The translations under genes were made by a program, and so were the position numbers. This document shows positions 12,047 to 32,600 of a DNA stretch of 64,000 nucleotides, piece by piece; position 1 is the first letter of the stretch; each line of letters starts with the position of its first letter. The notes beneath the pieces were generated by a model. That model was not told the DNA's origin. It saw nothing but the letters and a program-made list of their open reading frames with translations, and did not search any database. The DNA lies in NCBI GenBank assembly GCA_030614915.1, contig JAUXAG010000002.1:124001-188000 (forward strand), written 5' to 3'. This DNA comes from Actinomycetes bacterium. Its GTDB lineage: Bacteria > Planctomycetota > Phycisphaerae > JAACET01.

Positions 12047-12601
12047 ATGGGAAAGACAGCAATGTCTGGAAAAAGCCGACAAGCTTGGGGCCGGAACTGC
12101 AAAGGGGCTCTTGCGGCCGAGGAGCCGGAGCCAAGGGGTTTGGGTCTGCTGGGGCTGATGGGATGGCTGGGCTTTTTGGTTATTCTGCTGGTGGGGGTAG
12201 TGGCAGCGGCGAACTGGGCGAGGCAATCGGGCCGGCAGAAGTTGACCCGCCAATGCCTAAATGCCCTGGGGGAGGCATTGGTTGCCTACAGACAGGCGGA
12301 GGGAGAATTTCCGCCGACGGTTTCCAGCAGTGCCGAGCTGGTGAAATACTTGAAGTCGGTGCCCCCAGCCCAGCAGCGCCTGGAGGAGATGGCAGAGCAC
12401 GTTTTTGATACTACGAGCAGGGGCCCGGAGATATTGGACGGTTGGGGCAGGCCTTTGCGATATGTTTTTGACGGTGGAGCGGGGCAAAGGCCCGAATTGA
12501 AATCGCAGGGCCCAGACCCGGATGATCCGGCAGACGATATCTATGCCGAGGGTCTGCAGGCGGTTTTTATAGGGGACTCGGCTAAAGAGGCAGTGCAATG
12601 A
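12047..12601 (+). CDS. Membrane-anchored GspG-like protein without a prepilin leader
   Basis: A 184-residue protein with one hydrophobic segment (about residues 34-54) and a soluble domain whose C-terminal part, GWGRPLRYVFDG followed by SQGPDPDDPADDI, resembles the C-terminus of GspG major pseudopilins. The usual cleavage motif (G or A, then FTLIELL) is absent, so it is probably not processed by prepilin peptidase in the normal way. It begins 21 bases after pilC and its stop overlaps an alternative start of the next gene. It may be an assembly factor or a degenerate pseudopilin; function unknown. A second ATG at 12062 is possible. Confidence 0.65.
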   Translation: MGKTAMSGKSRQAWGRNCKGALAAEEPEPRGLGLLGLMGWLGFLVILLVGVVAAANWARQSGRQKLTRQCLNALGEALVAYRQAEGEFPPTVSSSAELVKYLKSVPPAQQRLEEMAEHVFDTTSRGPEILDGWGRPLRYVFDGGAGQRPELKSQGPDPDDPADDIYAEGLQAVFIGDSAKEAVQ

Positions 12602-12636
12602 GTTTTTTTGAGGTTCTTTCAAGAAAGGATGAAACT

Positions 12637-13386
12637 ATGTTTGGCAAACAAAATCGAAAAGCATTCACGCTGATTGAGCTGCTGGTGGTGGTGGCGATTA
12701 TCGCCCTGTTGGTAAGCATCATGGTCCCGGCCGTCCAGAACGCCATGAACGTCGCCAAAGACGGGGTGGTCGGAACCCAATTGCATAACATCCAGGTGGG
12801 TCTGGAAATGTTCAAGCATGATACAGTGGCAGGTGCTGGCTATTACCCGCCGAGCGATATTGTGGCTGATAGTCCGGACAAATCGGGGGCCCAGTTATTG
12901 TGCGATTTTCTGATGGGCTTAGACCTCAGAGGCTACGACCCATTATACGATCCAGTATCAGGACTAGGCTTTGATCCAGACAACCCCAGGCGCGGACCGT
13001 ACATCAAGCTGGGAACAGTTGAGTTTGAAGCGTATGGTGGGACCTATATTATGAAGTGTAAGTGGGGCTCGCCTATTCTCTACTACAGGGCTGCGCCCGG
13101 GACGACGCTGAGGGACGGTATAGCCGTTATCTACCGCGCGCGGGACAATGACCAGTTTATTAGGGATTATACGGGACGTACCGGACTGGACACTGATCCT
13201 TTGGCCGACAGTGCCCCCACGCCCGGCTATGGCCAGTATGGCGAATTCTTTGAGTATATCACAGATCCGCAGCTTCCCGGTGCCCCTCTGCCGTATAACC
13301 CGGACACTTTCATTCTGGTCAGTGCCGGCAGGGACGGAATCTACGGCAATGAGGACGATGTGTTTAATTTTGAACAACGAGAGTAG
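12637..13386 (+). CDS. GspG-type pseudopilin
   Basis: A 249-residue type II secretion/pilin-like protein. The leader MFGKQNRK is followed by AFTLIELLVVVAIIALLV, a standard prepilin signal with Ala rather than Gly before the cleavage site, and a hydrophobic assembly helix. The C-terminus SAGRDGIYGNEDDVFNF matches the acidic calcium-binding loop of GspG proteins. I chose ATG at 12637 because AAGGA lies 7 bases upstream; an upstream in-frame ATG at 12598 would place the helix too far in. At 249 residues it is longer than classical GspG (about 140), a size common in planctomycetes. Confidence 0.8.
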   Translation: MFGKQNRKAFTLIELLVVVAIIALLVSIMVPAVQNAMNVAKDGVVGTQLHNIQVGLEMFKHDTVAGAGYYPPSDIVADSPDKSGAQLLCDFLMGLDLRGYDPLYDPVSGLGFDPDNPRRGPYIKLGTVEFEAYGGTYIMKCKWGSPILYYRAAPGTTLRDGIAVIYRARDNDQFIRDYTGRTGLDTDPLADSAPTPGYGQYGEFFEYITDPQLPGAPLPYNPDTFILVSAGRDGIYGNEDDVFNFEQRE

Positions 13387-13477: not shown

Positions 13478-14077
13478 ATGCGAAATTCGAAACTCAAAAT
13501 TCGAAATTCGAAATCAACCGGCCTAAAGCCTGCTTTCACTCTGGTAGAAGTCCTGATAGTAGTGGCTATCCTGGCGGTGGTGGCGGTTGGGCTGGTGGGA
13601 GTGAGCGGCTATCTGCAGACCCAAAGCAGCATTGCCCTGACAGAAAAATGCGTGGAGCTTCTGAGCACAGCCGTGGCGGAGTTTTATGATATTACGGGAC
13701 ATTATCCGGTAGATAACTGGACTGTCACTAGCACGGATAGCACTTGCCGTATTTATAATGCTGTCAAAACCGGTGGGACCAGGAATCCGGCTCCGGACGA
13801 ACTCCTGTATTTGCAGTTGAGTCTTTTGCCGCAGACGCGGGAGATCATTTCCAAGCTGCCGAATCAACTGCTGGCCAAGCCCCTCGATCCCAGCAACAAC
13901 CTAATCACGGTTACATTGGCTGGTCAGACGAACCCTACGCCTTATCTGCGCTCAATTGTGGACCCATGGGGCGAGCCGCTCGATTACGACACGTCGGGTA
14001 GTTATCCGGTAATTCAATCCGGTGGGCCGGATGGTGATCTTGCGACCACAGAGGATAACATAAGCAATGCAGACTAG
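13478..14077 (+). CDS. GspG-like pseudopilin with repeat-encoded leader
   Basis: A 199-residue pseudopilin. The hydrophobic signal PAFTLVEVLIVVAILAVVAV starts at about residue 18, and the C-terminus DPWGEPLDYDTSGSYPVIQ followed by GGPDGDLATTEDNISNAD again resembles the GspG calcium loop. The basic leader is read from an AT-rich direct repeat (see 13481-13515). The start ATG at 13478 gives a leader of reasonable length; the frame is open further upstream but overlaps the preceding gene. The 3' end overlaps the next gene by 11 bases, so the two are translationally coupled. Confidence 0.75.
   Translation: MRNSKLKIRNSKSTGLKPAFTLVEVLIVVAILAVVAVGLVGVSGYLQTQSSIALTEKCVELLSTAVAEFYDITGHYPVDNWTVTSTDSTCRIYNAVKTGGTRNPAPDELLYLQLSLLPQTREIISKLPNQLLAKPLDPSNNLITVTLAGQTNPTPYLRSIVDPWGEPLDYDTSGSYPVIQSGGPDGDLATTEDNISNAD
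13481..13515. repeat. AT-rich short direct repeat inside a coding start
   Basis: Three imperfect copies of an AAATTCGAAA-type word lie immediately after the start codon of the pseudopilin gene and encode its basic leader (RNSK twice). The pattern is like small low-complexity repeats often seen between genes, here inside a coding region. Confidence 0.7.
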
Positions 14078-14696
14078 GCTGAATACATCTTTTTCAGGCC
14101 GGAGGCCGGAGACCGGAGTCTCAAGCCTCAAGCCTTACTACTCTGCGAAGCGGCGCTTCGCTGCGAAGCACGAGCAAGCCTCAAGCCTTCTTAGTTCCGC
14201 TTTTACGCTTGTTGAGCTACTGGTGGTGGTGGGCATTGTGGCGTTGGCTCTGGGGGCGCTTTTGCCGGCCTTGGGGGGCTTCTTCGACAGCGCCCGGGGC
14301 CCTGACGCCCGCAATCTGATATCGGCTCATCTGGCCGGGGCCAGAAATTATGCGGTGGCGAATAATGTAACTACGGCCCTGGTGTTCAGGGGGGATGATA
14401 AAGGTAAGCTTGTGCGGACATCAATGGTCCTGATCGAGCATACTCCCAGCGCGGCCTGGGAAACTACTTCCGTACCCGGCCGAAAGACTACGCACCTACC
14501 CGATAATATAGTCATCCATCCGCCTCTTTTAGGTACTCGCTCGGTGGAGATGTGTTTCTTGCCGACAGGTCAACTGACCACAATGGATGGCTCGGTGACG
14601 GAGTTCTACATTTATGATTATGTTGACAGCGACAATCCCAAAGAGCTGGACCATCTATCTATTAACTATTACACGGGGACGGTGATAGAACAATGA
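14067..14696 (+). CDS. GspH-like pseudopilin with long leader
   Basis: A 209-residue minor pseudopilin. The processing site is in SSAFTLVELLVVVGIVAL. About 45 residues precede it, far longer than the usual 6-25, and this leader is encoded by a low-complexity repeat block. The body (DARNLISAHLAGARNYAVANN) resembles the helix region of GspH minor pseudopilins. It overlaps its upstream neighbour by 11 bases and the downstream gene by 4 bases (ATGA). An alternative start closer to the hydrophobic helix is not obvious, so the long leader may be real or the true start may be a non-standard codon. Confidence 0.7.
   Translation: MQTRLNTSFSGRRPETGVSSLKPYYSAKRRFAAKHEQASSLLSSAFTLVELLVVVGIVALALGALLPALGGFFDSARGPDARNLISAHLAGARNYAVANNVTTALVFRGDDKGKLVRTSMVLIEHTPSAAWETTSVPGRKTTHLPDNIVIHPPLLGTRSVEMCFLPTGQLTTMDGSVTEFYIYDYVDSDNPKELDHLSINYYTGTVIEQ
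14096..14190. repeat. Low-complexity repeat block in a leader sequence
   Basis: The block contains GGCCGGAG-type words, two copies of TCAAGCCTCAAGCCTT (near 14120 and 14175), and a perfect 8-base inverted repeat GCGAAGCG/CGCTTCGC near 14145-14161. It encodes most of the leader of the pseudopilin starting at 14067. The reverse complement of the TCAAGCC word recurs near 16375. Confidence 0.7.
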
Positions 14697-15484
14697 CTAG
14701 CGAATCTCACAGACAATTACCTTCCCTCCGCCTTTCGCCTTTCTTGCTGCAGCCTACGGCCTACAGCCTAAAGCCTGGTCTTAGTTTAGTGGAGCTGCTG
14801 ATAGCTATTGGGATTCTGGGGGTAACGATGATGCTGATCGGGGCGGCCTTTCCGGCAGGCGTGGCCATGAGTATAGCCGTCAGCGATGAGACCACATCCC
14901 AAGCAGTTTTCCAAAAGGCCCTGGCAGAGATCAAAGCCAATCTGAGCAGCAGTGGTATTGCTGCCGTTGCGCCTAACCCGTTAACCGTTGTTGACTATAA
15001 TGTACTTGGAACGACCGAGGAGGAAATCCTGGAGTCGCGGCAGTTGACTGATACGAGTCCGTTTTCCTGGGCGGCCCTAGTGCGGCCGCTTGACGACAGC
15101 AATACAGGCCCGATGGGGAATCTCTGCCAAGTCGTCGTAGTTGTTTCCCGCCAGAAAATCAAAAAAGATACCAGTGGCAATGTGCTACTTCCAGACTTAC
15201 AAAGCGTGAATTGTACGGGCTCGGAGCCTGATGCTCGGACACTGACAATAGGCACAGGTTCTAGCATGGTGCCGAATGGCGGCTACATAATCGATGAAAC
15301 TACTGGGACGGCTTATATCATAGTCTCGTGGGATGAAGGCAGCAAGAAGGTTATGACTTTGAGTACTCCGCCGAGCGGCGCAACGGGAAACTTCTGGGTG
15401 GTTCCGGGGCCTTATGACGGGACCAATTACGGTCGGAAGTCGCCGGCGATTCGGGTTTTTCAGGCCATGCTGTATTTGCCGTGA
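14693..15484 (+). CDS. GspI-like pseudopilin
   Basis: A 263-residue pseudopilin. The processing site is in LKPGLSLVELLIAIGILGVTM, with Gly before and the conserved Glu at position 5 of the mature protein. The soluble part (ETTSQAVFQKALAEIKANLSS) shows no recognisable enzymatic motif. The start overlaps the preceding stop as ATGA. The roughly 30-residue leader is again encoded by a repeated GCCTACAGCC-type sequence. GspI is assigned by gene order and signal type only. Confidence 0.68.
   Translation: MTSESHRQLPSLRLSPFLLQPTAYSLKPGLSLVELLIAIGILGVTMMLIGAAFPAGVAMSIAVSDETTSQAVFQKALAEIKANLSSSGIAAVAPNPLTVVDYNVLGTTEEEILESRQLTDTSPFSWAALVRPLDDSNTGPMGNLCQVVVVVSRQKIKKDTSGNVLLPDLQSVNCTGSEPDARTLTIGTGSSMVPNGGYIIDETTGTAYIIVSWDEGSKKVMTLSTPPSGATGNFWVVPGPYDGTNYGRKSPAIRVFQAMLYLP
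14720..14778. repeat. Pyrimidine-rich repeat in a leader sequence
   Basis: Reiterated CCGCCTTTCGCCTTTC and GCCTACGGCCTACAGCC words lie just after the start codon at 14693 and encode the leader of that pseudopilin. Confidence 0.65.
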
Positions 15485-15493
15485 AAAGAAAGA

Positions 15494-15515
15494 CCTCACC
15501 ACGAAGGACACGAAG
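15494..15515. repeat. Short repeat providing a ribosome binding site
   Basis: A CACGAAGGACACGAAG-type word, similar to short intergenic repeats found in many planctomycete assemblies, sits in the 30-base gap. It carries AAGGA 6 bases before the GTG at 15515. Confidence 0.5.
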
Positions 15516-16369
15516 TGAAAATAATGGGCAATTCATACAGAAATTTTAACTCAGGCAGGGCGAGTGGTTTTACGCTGGCGGAGATGCTGGTGGCTGTGGG
15601 GATGGGGGTGATGCTGGTGGTAGCGGCCGCGGGGGTTTTCTCGCTGGCTACGCAGGCCGTGGGCAGCTCCCAGGCCAATACCCAAATCAACAGCAAGCTG
15701 CGGGTTTTATACTCCTGGCTGGATCGGGACTTCGCCCGCATCCGACTCGATGGACCTTTGGTTTTGTATCCACAGGAAAAAAACTTTGGCGGGGGGAACA
15801 CGAGAATTGATCAGGCGTGTTTTCTAATTTCCGGCGACATACCCTCCATGCGTACATCCAATAGCGCCAGTCTGGCTATCATTCTGTATGGCCCTGACAG
15901 TATTACTAATAATGCTTCCCTAAATGATCCCTACGAATGGGTCTTTACTCGCCGGGGCACACTCATCGTAGGCGATTCAACTGGTGGAGCAGATATTAAG
16001 CAGTCTTCCTTTGCTGGCCTGATAGCTAATGATGTAGCGGGACAAGCGGCATGGAACGCAGGTTGGACCAAACCTGACTTTTACTATGATTCAGCCTCTG
16101 GCCGCTACTTGTTCACTGACGCAACTCAACTGCCTACTTATTTGGTGGGTAATGTTACAAGCTTTAAGATTATCCAGTATTACATGGCTGGCGATACCGA
16201 GCCAATCGAGTATGACTCGACCGAATGGCCTGCGGGAACGCATATGACATTTACTCCTACGGATCCCAAGCCGGCGTGGATAGAGTTTGAGATAGTGCTG
16301 CGGGATTCGAACAATCGGCTGCAAGAAGGATATACGAGTAGATATCGGGTGAATTTGCCGAGCCGATAA
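15515..16369 (+). CDS. GspJ-like pseudopilin
   Basis: A 284-residue minor pseudopilin. The processing site is in SGFTLAEMLVAVGMGVML, with Gly-Phe cleavage, after a leader of about 18 residues. The region that follows (SKLRVLYSWLDRDFARIR) resembles GspJ proteins, which have a conserved helix with a D-x-R pattern. The GTG at 15515 has AAGGA 6 bases upstream; an ATG at 15524 is the alternative. It would cap the pseudofilament together with the GspI-like and GspK-like proteins. Confidence 0.72.
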   Translation: MKIMGNSYRNFNSGRASGFTLAEMLVAVGMGVMLVVAAAGVFSLATQAVGSSQANTQINSKLRVLYSWLDRDFARIRLDGPLVLYPQEKNFGGGNTRIDQACFLISGDIPSMRTSNSASLAIILYGPDSITNNASLNDPYEWVFTRRGTLIVGDSTGGADIKQSSFAGLIANDVAGQAAWNAGWTKPDFYYDSASGRYLFTDATQLPTYLVGNVTSFKIIQYYMAGDTEPIEYDSTEWPAGTHMTFTPTDPKPAWIEFEIVLRDSNNRLQEGYTSRYRVNLPSR

Positions 16370-16374
16370 CAAAG

Positions 16375-16434
16375 CAGGCTTGAGGCTTGAGGAAAAGAAG
16401 GTTTCGAATCGCGGATTGCGAATTGAAAAACAAA
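16375..16434. repeat. Low-complexity repeat between pseudopilin genes
   Basis: AGGCTTGAGGCTTGAG, the reverse complement of the word at 14120 and 14175, is followed by a TCGAATCGCGGATTGCGAAT-type stretch. It fills most of the gap before the GspK-like gene. Confidence 0.65.
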
Positions 16435-16441
16435 AGCATCT

Positions 16442-19204
16442 ATGAACGGATCATACATGATTAGCCACAAAATACATCCAAAGAAAGAGCCTCGGGGGAC
16501 GGTGCTGATTCTGTGCGTGGCCCTGCTGGTGATCCTGGGGCTGGTGGCCTCGACCTTTGTGATCCTCAGCCATACCCAAAGGGCCAGCTCGCGAGCGCTG
16601 AGCAGAGCCGATCAGCTCGAGCAGGTCAGGCAGATGAGCCTGGCCTACGTCCGCACGCTGCTGCTGGAAGACATTGTCACGGCTGATGTTTCCGGCAACG
16701 CCCAATTCCTGACCGGCAGCGCCGAGCCTTACGACTCCCCCGGCATTGACCCTGTAGTGGGCATACGCCTGGACCCCTGGCTAGGCTCCCACTGGGATTC
16801 CGGAATTGCTGGCTGGCGGTATCTGTCCAACATAACCGGCGATTCCGATCCAACGAGGCCTTACCAAAACGTTACTCCAGCCATTCTTGTCGGTATCCCT
16901 GACGATAGCACGGATACCGATGGTGACCGTGTACGTGACGCCTGGTGGATACCAGCCAATTCCAGTTTTCCATTTACCAACATAACCGCCCCCGATGGCA
17001 CTCAATACCGCGTTGCCATTCGCATTGTCGACACCAACGCCCTGGCGAACATTAACATCGGGGCAGCCAGTGTTGATGGCTCGTGGCCAGAACAGAATAC
17101 TCGTTTGTGGGACAGTCAATATCCGTGCTACTTGGATTTGCGTGGCATGGGCGCAGGATCATCTCTGGACAGCGGAGGTGCTGTACCTGGGCGGATCTCG
17201 GGGCGATCTTCCGATCCGTTTACAGCCTTGACTTATGAGCTATATCCACATTTGGCAAACAATAATTACACTGATTTGGGCAGTCTCGCGCCGCCACAGG
17301 ACTACATTCGGCCATTTGATGCGGCGGAGGAGTTGGCCCTGCGAATGATGGCTGGGCCGGGCACAGATTTGAACGGGCGATTGGGGAGCCTGTTGGCTTC
17401 GTTTAGCACTAATAGCAGGCTATTGACGGCTTATTCCTGGACGATGCAGATTCGACCATCTAGCAGTCAAGCTATTGAGGATGAGCTAACGGCTCTCGGC
17501 TTTCCCGGCCCATGCAAAATACCACTTGAACATCTTTTCGACAGCGATGCGCTGGTTAGGAAAAATGCTCGCCGGGCCGTCTATTTGGGTCTAGTTGCTG
17601 CATTGTTAGATAGCGGTATGAACTTAGTTAACGCGGAAGACGACGCAACTGAGTTTTTCGTCAGTCTGATGGACTATATCGATTACGACGATTTCTCAGA
17701 TGATCTTCCGGATATTTCGGTAATCGACTCGAGTGCTAATAGCCTAATAGATTTTGGAGCATGGCCTACAGCCCCCGCCAAACCTTTTGCAGCCAAAATT
17801 GCTTACGGTACGGATAGCCAGCCCATCATCTCGGAAGTCTATAGCTATAGATACTATGATTGGACGGAAGTACCTCCAGGTAGCGGCAATTACACTTTCG
17901 TAATAAATGATAACGAAAGCAGATATGCCGTCGAATTGTATAATCCTACGGGAGTGGATATTAACCTAAGCGGCTGGGTATTGGATCTTCAAACTACTTC
18001 TTATGATCTCAGTGGAACCATAGCAGCAGGCGGATTCTGGACCATAACTTCTCACGATGCTGACCACTTACCTAATAGCATCCCGGACCCGAAGCTGGTT
18101 CTCACACCACCAAGTGCTCCTACTCCTTTTGCTATAGGCACGGGCGAACAGCTTATTGAATTGGCGCGCCAGGGCCCGGGAGGTGCAGGGAACCTGGTTG
18201 TAGTAGATAGATGTGAAGAAAATTTCGGCCAGGTGCCACTCTATGTCGGCAATCTTATTGAGACTGTCCTAATGGATTTTCAACGGCCTGGTAATAATTA
18301 TGATGGTGATTTGATACCTGCTATTGCTGTTTTTCAGGATGGTTTGCCAAACATCACTTTGGGAACCTTTCCTACAATTAATAACAGTGGCGCTGGTGGC
18401 CAGCTTGTGTTTCCTGCTATTTCCGATGGCCAACTGCATAGTCTCGGCGAGCTTTTCTATGTACTGCGCGTAGCTTATAACGGGGCCAATGCTTCACTGA
18501 TCCTGGCTATGGAAGCCCAGCCGGACGGTGATTCAACCTATCGCCTGGACCCCAGCGGCGCCGCTGGTCGCAAGATTCTGCAATATTTCACTCTCCGCAC
18601 AGGCCTATATGATAATGCTGACAATGACGGCGACGGCTATAGGGACGACGTTAAGATCATCGACGGCACCTCCGCCACAGCCAAGGAAATTGTCCCGGAG
18701 GCACGCGTACCCGGCCTGATCAATGTCAATACGGCTCCTTATGGAGTTCTCCAGGCACTTCACTACTACTATCAGTCGGCGCAAAACGATATTGCTCAGT
18801 TTATATGGAGAAAACGCCCCTTTACTACTCTGGGTAGTGTAGCCAACAAAATTGCCACTGAAACTTACACTCCCGTACCACCTGATTTACCCATACCCAT
18901 AACACCTGCTGACCTTAGTAAAGATGAAGATTCAACTGTCGGTTCGCCGGACGGTATTACCGTGGACAACGAAGAAAAGCTATTCCACTTTAGAAACGTG
19001 GCTAATCTGATAAGCGTGCGGTCGGATGTGTTTGTGGTGTATATAACCATCCAGGCCAGCGATCGGGATGGGAAGTTTACTAATCCTACGGCTACGCTGC
19101 GGACGATGGCGATTGTGGACAGGTCGTTTTGTCTTCGGCCGCAGGGCACGACTCTGGCGGCTATTCCTTTGCCGAGGATAGTGGCCCAGACGACATTGCC
19201 ATAG
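16442..19204 (+). CDS. Very large GspK-like pseudopilin with lamin-tail-like insert
   Basis: GspK caps type II secretion pseudopili. This 920-residue protein has a short basic N-terminus and a hydrophobic helix (about residues 20-42, GTVLILCVALLVILGLVAS) and ends with the GspK-type segment VPGLINVNTAPYGVLQAL at about residue 755, a helix-hairpin-like element often followed by IxxxR and PF, as here. In between, about residues 486-545 (YAVELYNPTGVDINLSGWVL, then AAGGFWTITSH) resemble a lamin-tail (LTD) domain. Typical GspK is about 300 residues. An acidic repeat DNADNDGDGYRDD near residue 735 may bind calcium. It is the last gene of the operon. Confidence 0.75.
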   Translation: MNGSYMISHKIHPKKEPRGTVLILCVALLVILGLVASTFVILSHTQRASSRALSRADQLEQVRQMSLAYVRTLLLEDIVTADVSGNAQFLTGSAEPYDSPGIDPVVGIRLDPWLGSHWDSGIAGWRYLSNITGDSDPTRPYQNVTPAILVGIPDDSTDTDGDRVRDAWWIPANSSFPFTNITAPDGTQYRVAIRIVDTNALANINIGAASVDGSWPEQNTRLWDSQYPCYLDLRGMGAGSSLDSGGAVPGRISGRSSDPFTALTYELYPHLANNNYTDLGSLAPPQDYIRPFDAAEELALRMMAGPGTDLNGRLGSLLASFSTNSRLLTAYSWTMQIRPSSSQAIEDELTALGFPGPCKIPLEHLFDSDALVRKNARRAVYLGLVAALLDSGMNLVNAEDDATEFFVSLMDYIDYDDFSDDLPDISVIDSSANSLIDFGAWPTAPAKPFAAKIAYGTDSQPIISEVYSYRYYDWTEVPPGSGNYTFVINDNESRYAVELYNPTGVDINLSGWVLDLQTTSYDLSGTIAAGGFWTITSHDADHLPNSIPDPKLVLTPPSAPTPFAIGTGEQLIELARQGPGGAGNLVVVDRCEENFGQVPLYVGNLIETVLMDFQRPGNNYDGDLIPAIAVFQDGLPNITLGTFPTINNSGAGGQLVFPAISDGQLHSLGELFYVLRVAYNGANASLILAMEAQPDGDSTYRLDPSGAAGRKILQYFTLRTGLYDNADNDGDGYRDDVKIIDGTSATAKEIVPEARVPGLINVNTAPYGVLQALHYYYQSAQNDIAQFIWRKRPFTTLGSVANKIATETYTPVPPDLPIPITPADLSKDEDSTVGSPDGITVDNEEKLFHFRNVANLISVRSDVFVVYITIQASDRDGKFTNPTATLRTMAIVDRSFCLRPQGTTLAAIPLPRIVAQTTLP

Positions 19205-19266
19205 CAAAATCAAATTGCAAAAGTCAAATATCAAAATTACAGATAAAAAATCAAAAAGATAAAAAC
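19205..19266. repeat. AT-rich low-complexity repeat at the end of the pilin operon
   Basis: AAATCAAA- and TCAAAAAGA-type words fill the gap between two convergent genes. The composition differs sharply from the GC-rich surroundings. No hairpin terminator was seen here. Confidence 0.65.
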
Positions 19267-29621: not shown

Positions 29622-32600
29622 CTATGGCGGTGGGGGGGCTATGGGCTTGAGTATACCTTCCAGGATTTTTCCGACTTCTCTGGCGGCCTGATTTCGCAGG
29701 ACGCGGGAGATCTGCTCCAAGAGGAGCCCGGGGAAGGCGGCGACGTCGAGCCGGGGCTTGCTGAGAGTGCCGGTTATGGGCAGGTAAATGCGCTGGTCTG
29801 CGAGGAATTTGATGAGCTCGGGGCGGTTGCCCAACATGGAGGGCAAGATGGGGATGCCGACCCGCATGCTTATGCTTTCATCCAAGCCGACCTGGCCGGA
29901 AAATGACAAGTCCAGCAGGTGGCTAAAAACAATGTGCATATCTTTGTAGCTGACGACGCCATCGGAAAGCTCGATACTGACCGGGCGGAGCTCGCCAAGC
30001 TTGCTGGAGAGGTCAAGATCGAGTATGGAAGCCAAATCCGCCATTATCCCCTTTCTGGGCTGGAAGAGAAGGTCTTTGCCGCTGAACAGGCCCTTCATTT
30101 TGGCGGTCTGTCTCCATTTGGCTGGGTCGTCTATGAGCAGGTGGTTGCAGATGAAGCTGACGGTGCCGGAGACTTGGTGGTTATCGGCGAAGACGGGGTT
30201 GATAAACTTCAACAGAGCGTTGGACATTTGGGCGTTGATCTGAACGTCTTCGACAAGGTTGATGGGCTGGGAGATTACGAGAAACGGTTTTGTGCGGGCC
30301 AGAGAAACCTGAGCCTGGAAGTTAATTTTTCCCTTGTTGGCTGGTATGGTGCTGGGGGGAATGGTCAGCAGGCCCTGTTTTACATGCATGTCAATGTCGG
30401 CAGGTCCGAGGGTCACGCCTGCAAGCTCCTGCCGGTCGATGTGCAACGCAGCCGGCCCACTGAGCGAAGCAAGCCAATCCGTGCTGCCTGGTGTGCCGGT
30501 GAGAGTCATATTGGCACTGCCCGAGCCGGTGAGCTCAGGCCAATTGCTAAACCAAGGCTGCATGACGCGACTGAGTCGCTGGAGGTCAGAGTGTACCTGG
30601 AGGGTGATCTTGGCAGGTGAGGCTGGAGAGGAGAGGCCTGTTGTTACTTGAGCATTGACCTGGAGGAAATCGGAAGAGACATCCAAGCGGCTCAGCTCGA
30701 GGGTCTTGGCGGCGCGGTCGGCAGAACCTTCGATCTGCAGAGAGATTTTCGGTTCGGCGAAGACTGGTCGGCCGGGTGGGCGAAGCTTCAGATTGAGAAT
30801 CTGCGAGTCGAGTGTAAAACTTTCCTGCTGAGTTTGCCGGGAATAGGAGGCTTGGCCGGCCAACTGTCCGGCGAGCTCGGTTTTGGGATCGAGCTTGGCG
30901 AAGGTGACCAACCAGGGGTTGAGCCGGCGGAGGTCGCCCTGGAAGTCGGCCTGGGTATGGATGTCAAACTTGCCGTCCGGTTGCCGGGCGAGGGTTAGCT
31001 TTTGGAAGCGGGCGGTCAGGCCAGCTAATTTGAGCTGCGGCAATTCGCCATCCAGGGTTCGAGAGTTGAGATCGTATAGCAGCTTGTGCTCAAGAGTGAC
31101 GCGGGGCTCAAGCAGAGTCCGGCCGTCTTCGTAGGTGATACGAAGGTCCTGGAGGGTGGTTGCTCCATCACAAGCGATGATTTGAGGACGGGGGGCGGCG
31201 AAGGTCAGGGCGCTGTCGAGCGTGCCCTGTAGCTGGAAGTCCTGGGGTGAAGAACCGAAGGCTAGGGTAAGCTCCTGCAATCGGGCCAGGTCGGCTGTGA
31301 TTTGGGCCTGGCCGGTGACGGCCAGTGGCTTGGGATCGATTTGCCCGGAGAATTGAAGCTCGGTGCGGTCGGTGAGGAGCTGGGCTTGTTTGAAGGAAAG
31401 AGCAGCTATTTGATTGTTCTCGGTGCGAGTGAGAGAACCGTCGAGGATTAGTCGAAGGTGGGGCTCGCGAAGGTCGCGCTGGGCCAAGCCAGCAATGAGA
31501 AGATTGTCGGCAGTCAACTCGGTGAGGAAATTGATCCGGTGGTCCTGGGTGGTGATGTCGGCGTTACAGAGGAGCTGGCCGTCGAGGTCGAGTTTGCCGA
31601 GGTCGGCGAATTGGGCCAAATAGGTTTGCAAGGTAGACAAATCACTTTTTAATTTGATTTGGCCGGTGACCGCTAGTGGCTTGGGATCGATTTGCCCGGA
31701 GAATTGAAGCTGAGTGCGCTCGGTTAGGAACTGGGCCTGTTTGAAGGAAAGGGCAGCTATTTGATTATTGTCGGTACGGGTAAGAGAACCGTCGAGGATC
31801 AGTTGAAGGTGTGGCTCGCGGAGATCGCGTCTTGCCAGGCCAGTGATAAAGAGATCGGTGGCGGTCAGGTCGGCCTGGCAGTTTAACCGGCGGTCCTGGG
31901 TGGTGATGTCGGCATTACAGAGGAGCTGGCCGGCGAGGTCGAGTTTGCCGAGGTCGATGAATTGGGACAGGTAGCTATTCGCCCTGGATAAATCGGTTTC
32001 CAATTGCATCCGACCAGAGACGGTCAAAGGCTGGAGATTGCAACTGCCGGCGAATTGAAGCTGGGTCTCGTCGGCGAGGAGTTGGGCCCGTTCAATGGAG
32101 ACCGCAGCGATTTGCTTATCCTGGGCCAAGGTGAGAGAACCTTGGAGGTTCAATCTAATCTGGGGCTCACGAAGGTCGCGGGGTGTCAGCCCGTGGAGGA
32201 AGAGGTCGGTTCCGGTAAGGTCGAGCTGGAAGTCCAAGTGCCGTGGGGCGGTGGTGAGCTTTGCATCGCAGAGGAGCTGTCCGGCGAAGCTACTGTCGCC
32301 AAGGTCTATGAATCGAGCCAACTGAATATTGAGCTTGGCGAGGTCGAGGTCGGCCTGGAGAGTGAGGTCGTTTGCTTTTCCGGTGGCGGAGAGGCTGCCG
32401 AAGCCGCTGTTGGCAGATATCCGGCGAATCTGAAGGTCCTGCTCTTTGGTGCGGACAAGGTCAAAGCTGAATTCGACGGGTTCGTCGAGTTGGATGTTCC
32501 TTTTTGGCGTAGAGCCTTGCATATTCTGCAAGGCAGCGGTGCCGATCAGTTGGGTGCTGCCGTCAGCGGTGGTAATAGTGTAGTTGGCAATTAGATCGCC

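Follow-up and report, generated by a model that had tools for sequence, protein, structure and literature searches.

The window (the whole stretch of 64,000 nucleotides analysed here) carries an operon of the type II secretion or pilus-like kind, with genes for an ATPase, a T2SSF protein, a T2SSG-like protein, five prepilin-type proteins and a GspK-like protein (Table 1). The GspH/I/J/K names were taken from gene order and N-terminal motifs, without family matches. The N_methyl cleavage motif, PF07963, scored above its cut-off in genes 1 and 2, just below the 21.2-bit cut-off in genes 3 (20.2 bits) and 4, and more weakly in gene 5. The ATG of gene 3 overlaps gene 2 and that of gene 4 overlaps the stop codon of gene 3 (ATGA); both genes begin inside the end of the preceding one, and there is therefore no spacer at these two junctions.

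Table 1. Genes and repeats of the prepilin operon, in window coordinates. G000 is the genome of the window; G001 and G002 are congeners.
Feature	Position	Strand	Remarks
Gene 1, N_methyl prepilin (GspG-like)	12598..13386	+	ORF; PF07963 1e-7; leader free of these repeats
Gene 2, prepilin	13478..14077	+	PF07963 3.8e-6; leader MRNSKLKIRNSKSTGLKPA from AAATTCG and GCCTAAA repeats
Period-7 array AAATTCG	13481..13514	+	in-frame, gene 2 leader; TRF score 54
Gene 3, GspH-like prepilin	14067..14696	+	ORF; 45-aa leader MQTRLNTSFSGRRPETGVSSLKPYYSAKRRFAAKHEQASSLLSSA made of two heptamer arrays and E
Period-7 array AGGCCGG	14096..14118	+	codes within gene 3 leader
(CTCAAGC)n array, left half	14120..14135	+	register resumes at 14175 without E
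Element E, dispersed palindrome	14136..14174	-	39 nt, 13 in-frame codons YYSAKRRFAAKHE; genome-wide copies
(CTCAAGC)n array, right half	14175..14190	+	
Gene 4, GspI-like prepilin	14693..15484	+	leader MTSESHRQLPSLRLSPFLLQPTAYSLKPG from CGCCTTT and CAGCCTA arrays
Period-7 array CGCCTTT	14729..14743	+	coding, gene 4 leader
Period-7 array (CAGCCTA)n	14750..14776	+	coding (TAYSLKP), gene 4 leader
9-bp repeat CACGAAGGACACGAAG	15500..15515	+	period 9, not 7; 5′ of gene 5; also in orthologous G002 spacer
Gene 5, GspJ-like prepilin	15524..16369	+	ATG 15524 gives 15-aa leader as in G002
(AGGCTTG)n array	16376..16392	+	spacer 5′ of gspK-like gene, non-coding
GspK-like protein	16442..19204	+	orthologue in G002, 59% identical
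AAAATCA-type heptamer array	19206..19257	+	3′ of gspK-like stop

The simple repeats that a preliminary description had listed for these junctions (13478-16441) were recovered to within a few bases, together with two arrays that it had not listed, AGGCCGG and CGCCTTT. The repeat before gene 5 exists but had been placed at 15494, and two CAAGCCT tracts that had been treated as separate repeats are the halves of one array, split by a palindrome that we call E. Within these 2.96 kb four period-7 arrays score at least 10, where 400 Markov shuffles predict 0.0075 (maximum 1), and of the 459 segments of equal length in the 1.43 Mb analysed, 421 hold no such array. Genome statistics throughout cover 1.43 of 2.56 Mb, with genes called by a home-made caller. 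The 7-bp unit recurs in phase every 21 nt, or seven codons; (AGCCTCA)n translates as SLKPQAS, giving SLKP before the gene 4 cleavage site and LKP in gene 2.

It had also been claimed that the repeats encode the residues ahead of the processing site. They do so in genes 2, 3 and 4 but not in gene 5, whose leader in G002 starts downstream of the repeat; at gene 5 and the gspK-like gene the repeats lie outside the coding leader only. That the true starts lie downstream, leaving the repeats as ordinary untranslated spacer, holds for gene 5 (ATG 15524), but as a reading of these junctions we consider it highly improbable. Between repeats and processing site there is no in-frame ATG, GTG or TTG in genes 2 and 3, and gene 4 has a single in-frame TTG, which is within the repeats, so that genes 2-4 offer no usable start downstream of them. 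The overlaps of genes 3 and 4 with their predecessors likewise speak against untranslated spacer.

The operon copy in G002 is split over two contigs. Its gene 2 orthologue (60% identity) retains the AAATTCG leader, MRNSKCEIRNARSRAA, and there the start codon falls inside a heptamer unit, AATGCGA, that alternates with AATTCGA; donation of start codons by repeats, which had been proposed for these genes, is on this ground plausible for gene 2 only. The companion proposal that repeats supply ribosome binding sites is unsupported, as the arrays are not significantly biased in orientation (AGGC strand 10 sense to 5 antisense, A-rich strand 9:9). Gene 5 of G002 has an equal 15-aa leader from the ATG equivalent to 15524, and the CACGAAGG repeat stands upstream in both genomes. 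Operon junctions in G002 (L247 6457-6664 and 7526-7815; L268) hold other modules, namely CACGAAGG, AGACGCAGATTACGCGG and GGCAAAGGCACAGAGGCAC, from which we conclude that the repeat content of a given border turns over between species.

Heptamer arrays are a general feature of gene borders in this genome: 37 of 47 are intergenic, and the whole set of 47 lies at a median of 20.5 bp from a gene boundary, versus 244 for random positions. Similar repeats are also translated as the ends of unrelated proteins, N- as well as C-terminal, among them the C-termini of a CimA-like (...KGTQAQRHKGTK) and an RsgA-like (...KGTKAQRHKGTK) protein, both named by sequence resemblance. A link specific to pilin genes, as had been suspected, finds no support; similar arrays also flank unrelated genes. 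By inspection, prepilin-type genes of this genome outside the operon have no leader repeats, and AAGCCT occurs within 30 nt of FTLVE in 29 of 150 genomes of the class, mostly as single matches, which gives no pilin-specific enrichment. Elsewhere in the window, at 31309-32180, a 351-bp unit is tandemly duplicated in about 2.4 copies.

A protein search with gene 3 matched, at its leader, non-pilin places in its own genome, and excising E (14136-14174) with its trailing TA puts the flanking CAAGCCT array back in register. E, which is open in five of six frames, is dispersed, with E-like DNA at 53 places in G000. A strict pattern found 24 copies in G000, 11 in G001 and none in G002; the backward control found none. 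Most copies lie between genes (21 of 23), and settings include AGGCTTG arrays, CACGAAGG and GTGCCTTT arrays, the loops of CCCCCAGG...CCTGGGGG hairpins, and nests with other palindromes. The ends, CTCGTGCT ... CGCAGAGTAGYA, are conserved from one unrelated locus to the next, distant bins included. The 62 distinct E sequences mostly fold as a bulged hairpin with a TAGYA (TAG[TC]A) 3′ tail; across them an inner hairpin pair covaries (T-A 44, C-G 13, T-G 4, other 1), and single-sequence folds are only weakly better than those of shuffles. The context of E is non-random: 16 of 78 distinct sites lie in inverted repeats of at least 7 bp (shuffled mean 1.6, maximum 5) and 11 of 78 in direct repeats of at least 8 bp (shuffled mean 1.0, maximum 5). 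Rfam gave no credible match, and sequence strings led to nothing relevant in open-licence literature. A second palindrome family (CCAGCCTTCGCAG ... CGGAGTAGGC) is nested in E at L120, L122 and L121 (G000 C13, C18), occupying an equal internal position of E in L120 and L122.

Copies of E also lie in-frame within other proteins. The mnmE gene of G000 carries one (ARASQRSAASQSS), and its orthologue in G001 (88% nt identity) presents the empty site, exactly 39 nt shorter, with flanks GGATAAG^TAAAGGGC; mnmE of G002 likewise lacks the 39 nt. No duplicated target of at least 3 bp is seen at the empty site, which leaves the exact ends of E ambiguous by 2 nt. The arrangement TCCGCAA[E]TCCGCAA at L204 had raised the idea that the heptamers are 7-bp target duplications of E, which we reject because the MnmE empty site shows none. 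Intergenic E sites too are polymorphic, present or absent between G000 and G001. A RecA-like protein, so assigned from its sequence rather than a family search, has an N-terminal extension partly encoded by E (TRATQRGDASQSSKRGD) in G000 (C21; L338 1480-1560) and in G001 (L334), and at some sites such as this one E may be older and vertically retained.

Two further leaders, both in other genomes, contain independent insertions of E. At L204, in an N_methyl gene (3.6e-6), the leader holds two in-frame copies within a TCCGCAA array; at L153 E is in-frame in a prepilin-type leader and its removal restores MKKPRQKGFVLILV, the product being apparently pilin-like, with a sub-threshold DUF2393 hit as its only Pfam match. 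These leaders and those of genes 2-4, which consist of repeat DNA, support the earlier suggestion that a leader that is cut off tolerates insertions. An enrichment of E in prepilin leaders specifically is not proven by three post hoc cases.

In a GTDB scan, E was found, patchily and among the matches listed, in bins labelled Planctomycetota, Armatimonadota, Verrucomicrobia, Lentisphaerae, Kiritimatiellaeota, Deltaproteobacteria, Coatesbacteria, Uhrbacteria and others; no cyanobacterial records with E were among those matches. Phylum labels are the depositors' and bins may be contaminated: L198, labelled Actinomycetes, has the contig position and flanks of the G001 copy. In one Armatimonadota bin the contigs with E are many and reach 416 kb, and in the window's own phylum it was found in one of 392 sampled genomes. 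Two loci of a Deltaproteobacteria bin, JACRCP (L175 282-318, L206 206-242), which by eye resemble Y1-type transposase genes, are interrupted by E just before MNSHAHLVIE.

REP/REPIN sequences are hairpins of 20-40 nt, tagged at one end; they are scattered through the genome, chiefly outside genes, and carry no gene of their own (PMC3116915, which also cites small dispersed repeats (SDR), and PMC3733652). E resembles them as a short imperfect palindrome that is dispersed and mostly extragenic, but its TAGYA tail, next to the hairpin, seems to differ in arrangement from the usual GTAG or CGTC tag, and no Y1/RAYT transposase was found in its host genome: a PF01797 search of G000 (95.8% complete) gave no match while positive controls matched. 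On this search RAYT was rejected as mobiliser of E. A single reverse transcriptase is present (L363 898-2382, G000 C35; best PADLOC matches RT and RT_UG17), with no link to E. The Rickettsia palindromic elements (RPE), about 150 bp long, are palindromic and lie in-frame in unrelated protein genes (PMC10969869). E shares this habit (gene 3, MnmE, RecA, L204, L153) but is 39 nt long, mostly intergenic, and found in genomes not labelled Rickettsia. The SDR of Nostoc were reportedly described by Elhai et al. in 2008 as very short dispersed elements (21-27 nt) that have predicted stem-loops, sit inside tandem heptamers and can be nested; they are reportedly confined to a group of cyanobacteria and presumed mobile without a known enzyme. 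E is like the SDR so described in being nested and embedded in tandem heptamers, and is set apart by description in being 21-39 nt long (more when nested), in lying in bins of several phyla and in being in-frame in proteins. Heptameric simple sequence repeats, 7-bp tandem units over-represented between genes, are known from Xanthomonas and Nostoc (PMC4692102); the arrays here differ in comprising several AT- or GC-rich unit classes, not of the G-quadruplex type, and in being partly translated into leaders. E is thus SDR-like in size and setting, RPE-like in coding, and REP-like in shape without RAYT.

We think it likely that the leaders of three prepilin genes were rebuilt from dispersed border repeats, namely heptamer arrays and the mobile E, which the leader tolerates. 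The heptamer arrays, short, imperfect and drawn from few unit classes, would accumulate at gene borders genome-wide, presumably by slippage. E, a bulged hairpin of about 39 nt, would insert without target duplication, favouring inverted-repeat loops and tandem arrays, and in gene 3 would have entered the CAAGCCT array and, with its 39 nt and five open frames out of six, added 13 codons. The repeats probably survive in prepilin leaders because the leader is removed and its requirements are limited to the cleavage site and a short basic stretch, which fits as one example of repeats coming to rest under weak selection. Outside pilins, E would persist chiefly in intergenic DNA, with an occasional copy in a protein region that is permissive (MnmE, the RecA N-terminus). 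A mobile E acted on in trans, presumably by a putative enzyme, is supported by the covariation in its hairpin and by its bias towards tandem arrays and the loops of inverted repeats.

Two other accounts need weighing. The repeats might have a selected function, regulating or phase-varying pilin expression through slippage frameshifts or the supply of ribosome binding sites and starts. A change of one 7-bp unit does shift the reading frame, and the AAATTCG leader of gene 2, with its ATG inside a unit, is retained in G002 at 60% protein identity. The arrays, however, are short (2-5 units) and imperfect, so that slippage should be rare, and their lack of significant orientation bias, the prepilin leaders that by inspection are repeat-free elsewhere in the genome and the similar arrays flanking unrelated genes all count against such a function, which we regard as improbable. 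Alternatively, arrays and E might both be neutral products of slippage and fold-back, with no trans-acting mobility and with likeness across genomes due to convergent palindrome growth. This is in keeping with the general bacterial heptamer excess, attributed to polymerase slippage (PMC4692102), and with the failure to find a transposase by the PF01797 search; for the heptamers alone it is possible. For E it is disfavoured by the clean empty site, and a fixed sequence of 37-39 nt whose ends recur at unrelated loci, also in distant bins, is likewise hard to reconcile with it, so that as an account of both we find it unlikely.

For annotation, the repeats carry a warning: tails and leaders like SLKPQAS or GTKAQRHKGTK are translated repeats. 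Repeats may also end contigs, as in the operon copy of G002. More broadly, and more tentatively than the rebuilding of the three leaders, we suggest that E could be among the smallest mobile elements, spread horizontally across phyla by a putative enzyme targeting single strands or hairpins, creating in-frame segments and landing recurrently in prepilin leaders. With its conserved ends, its presence in bins of several phyla, its clean empty site and its in-frame copies in RecA and MnmE, E brings two questions within reach of testing: by what means an element too short for any gene of its own can move, and with what frequency protein sequence originates from selfish palindromes.
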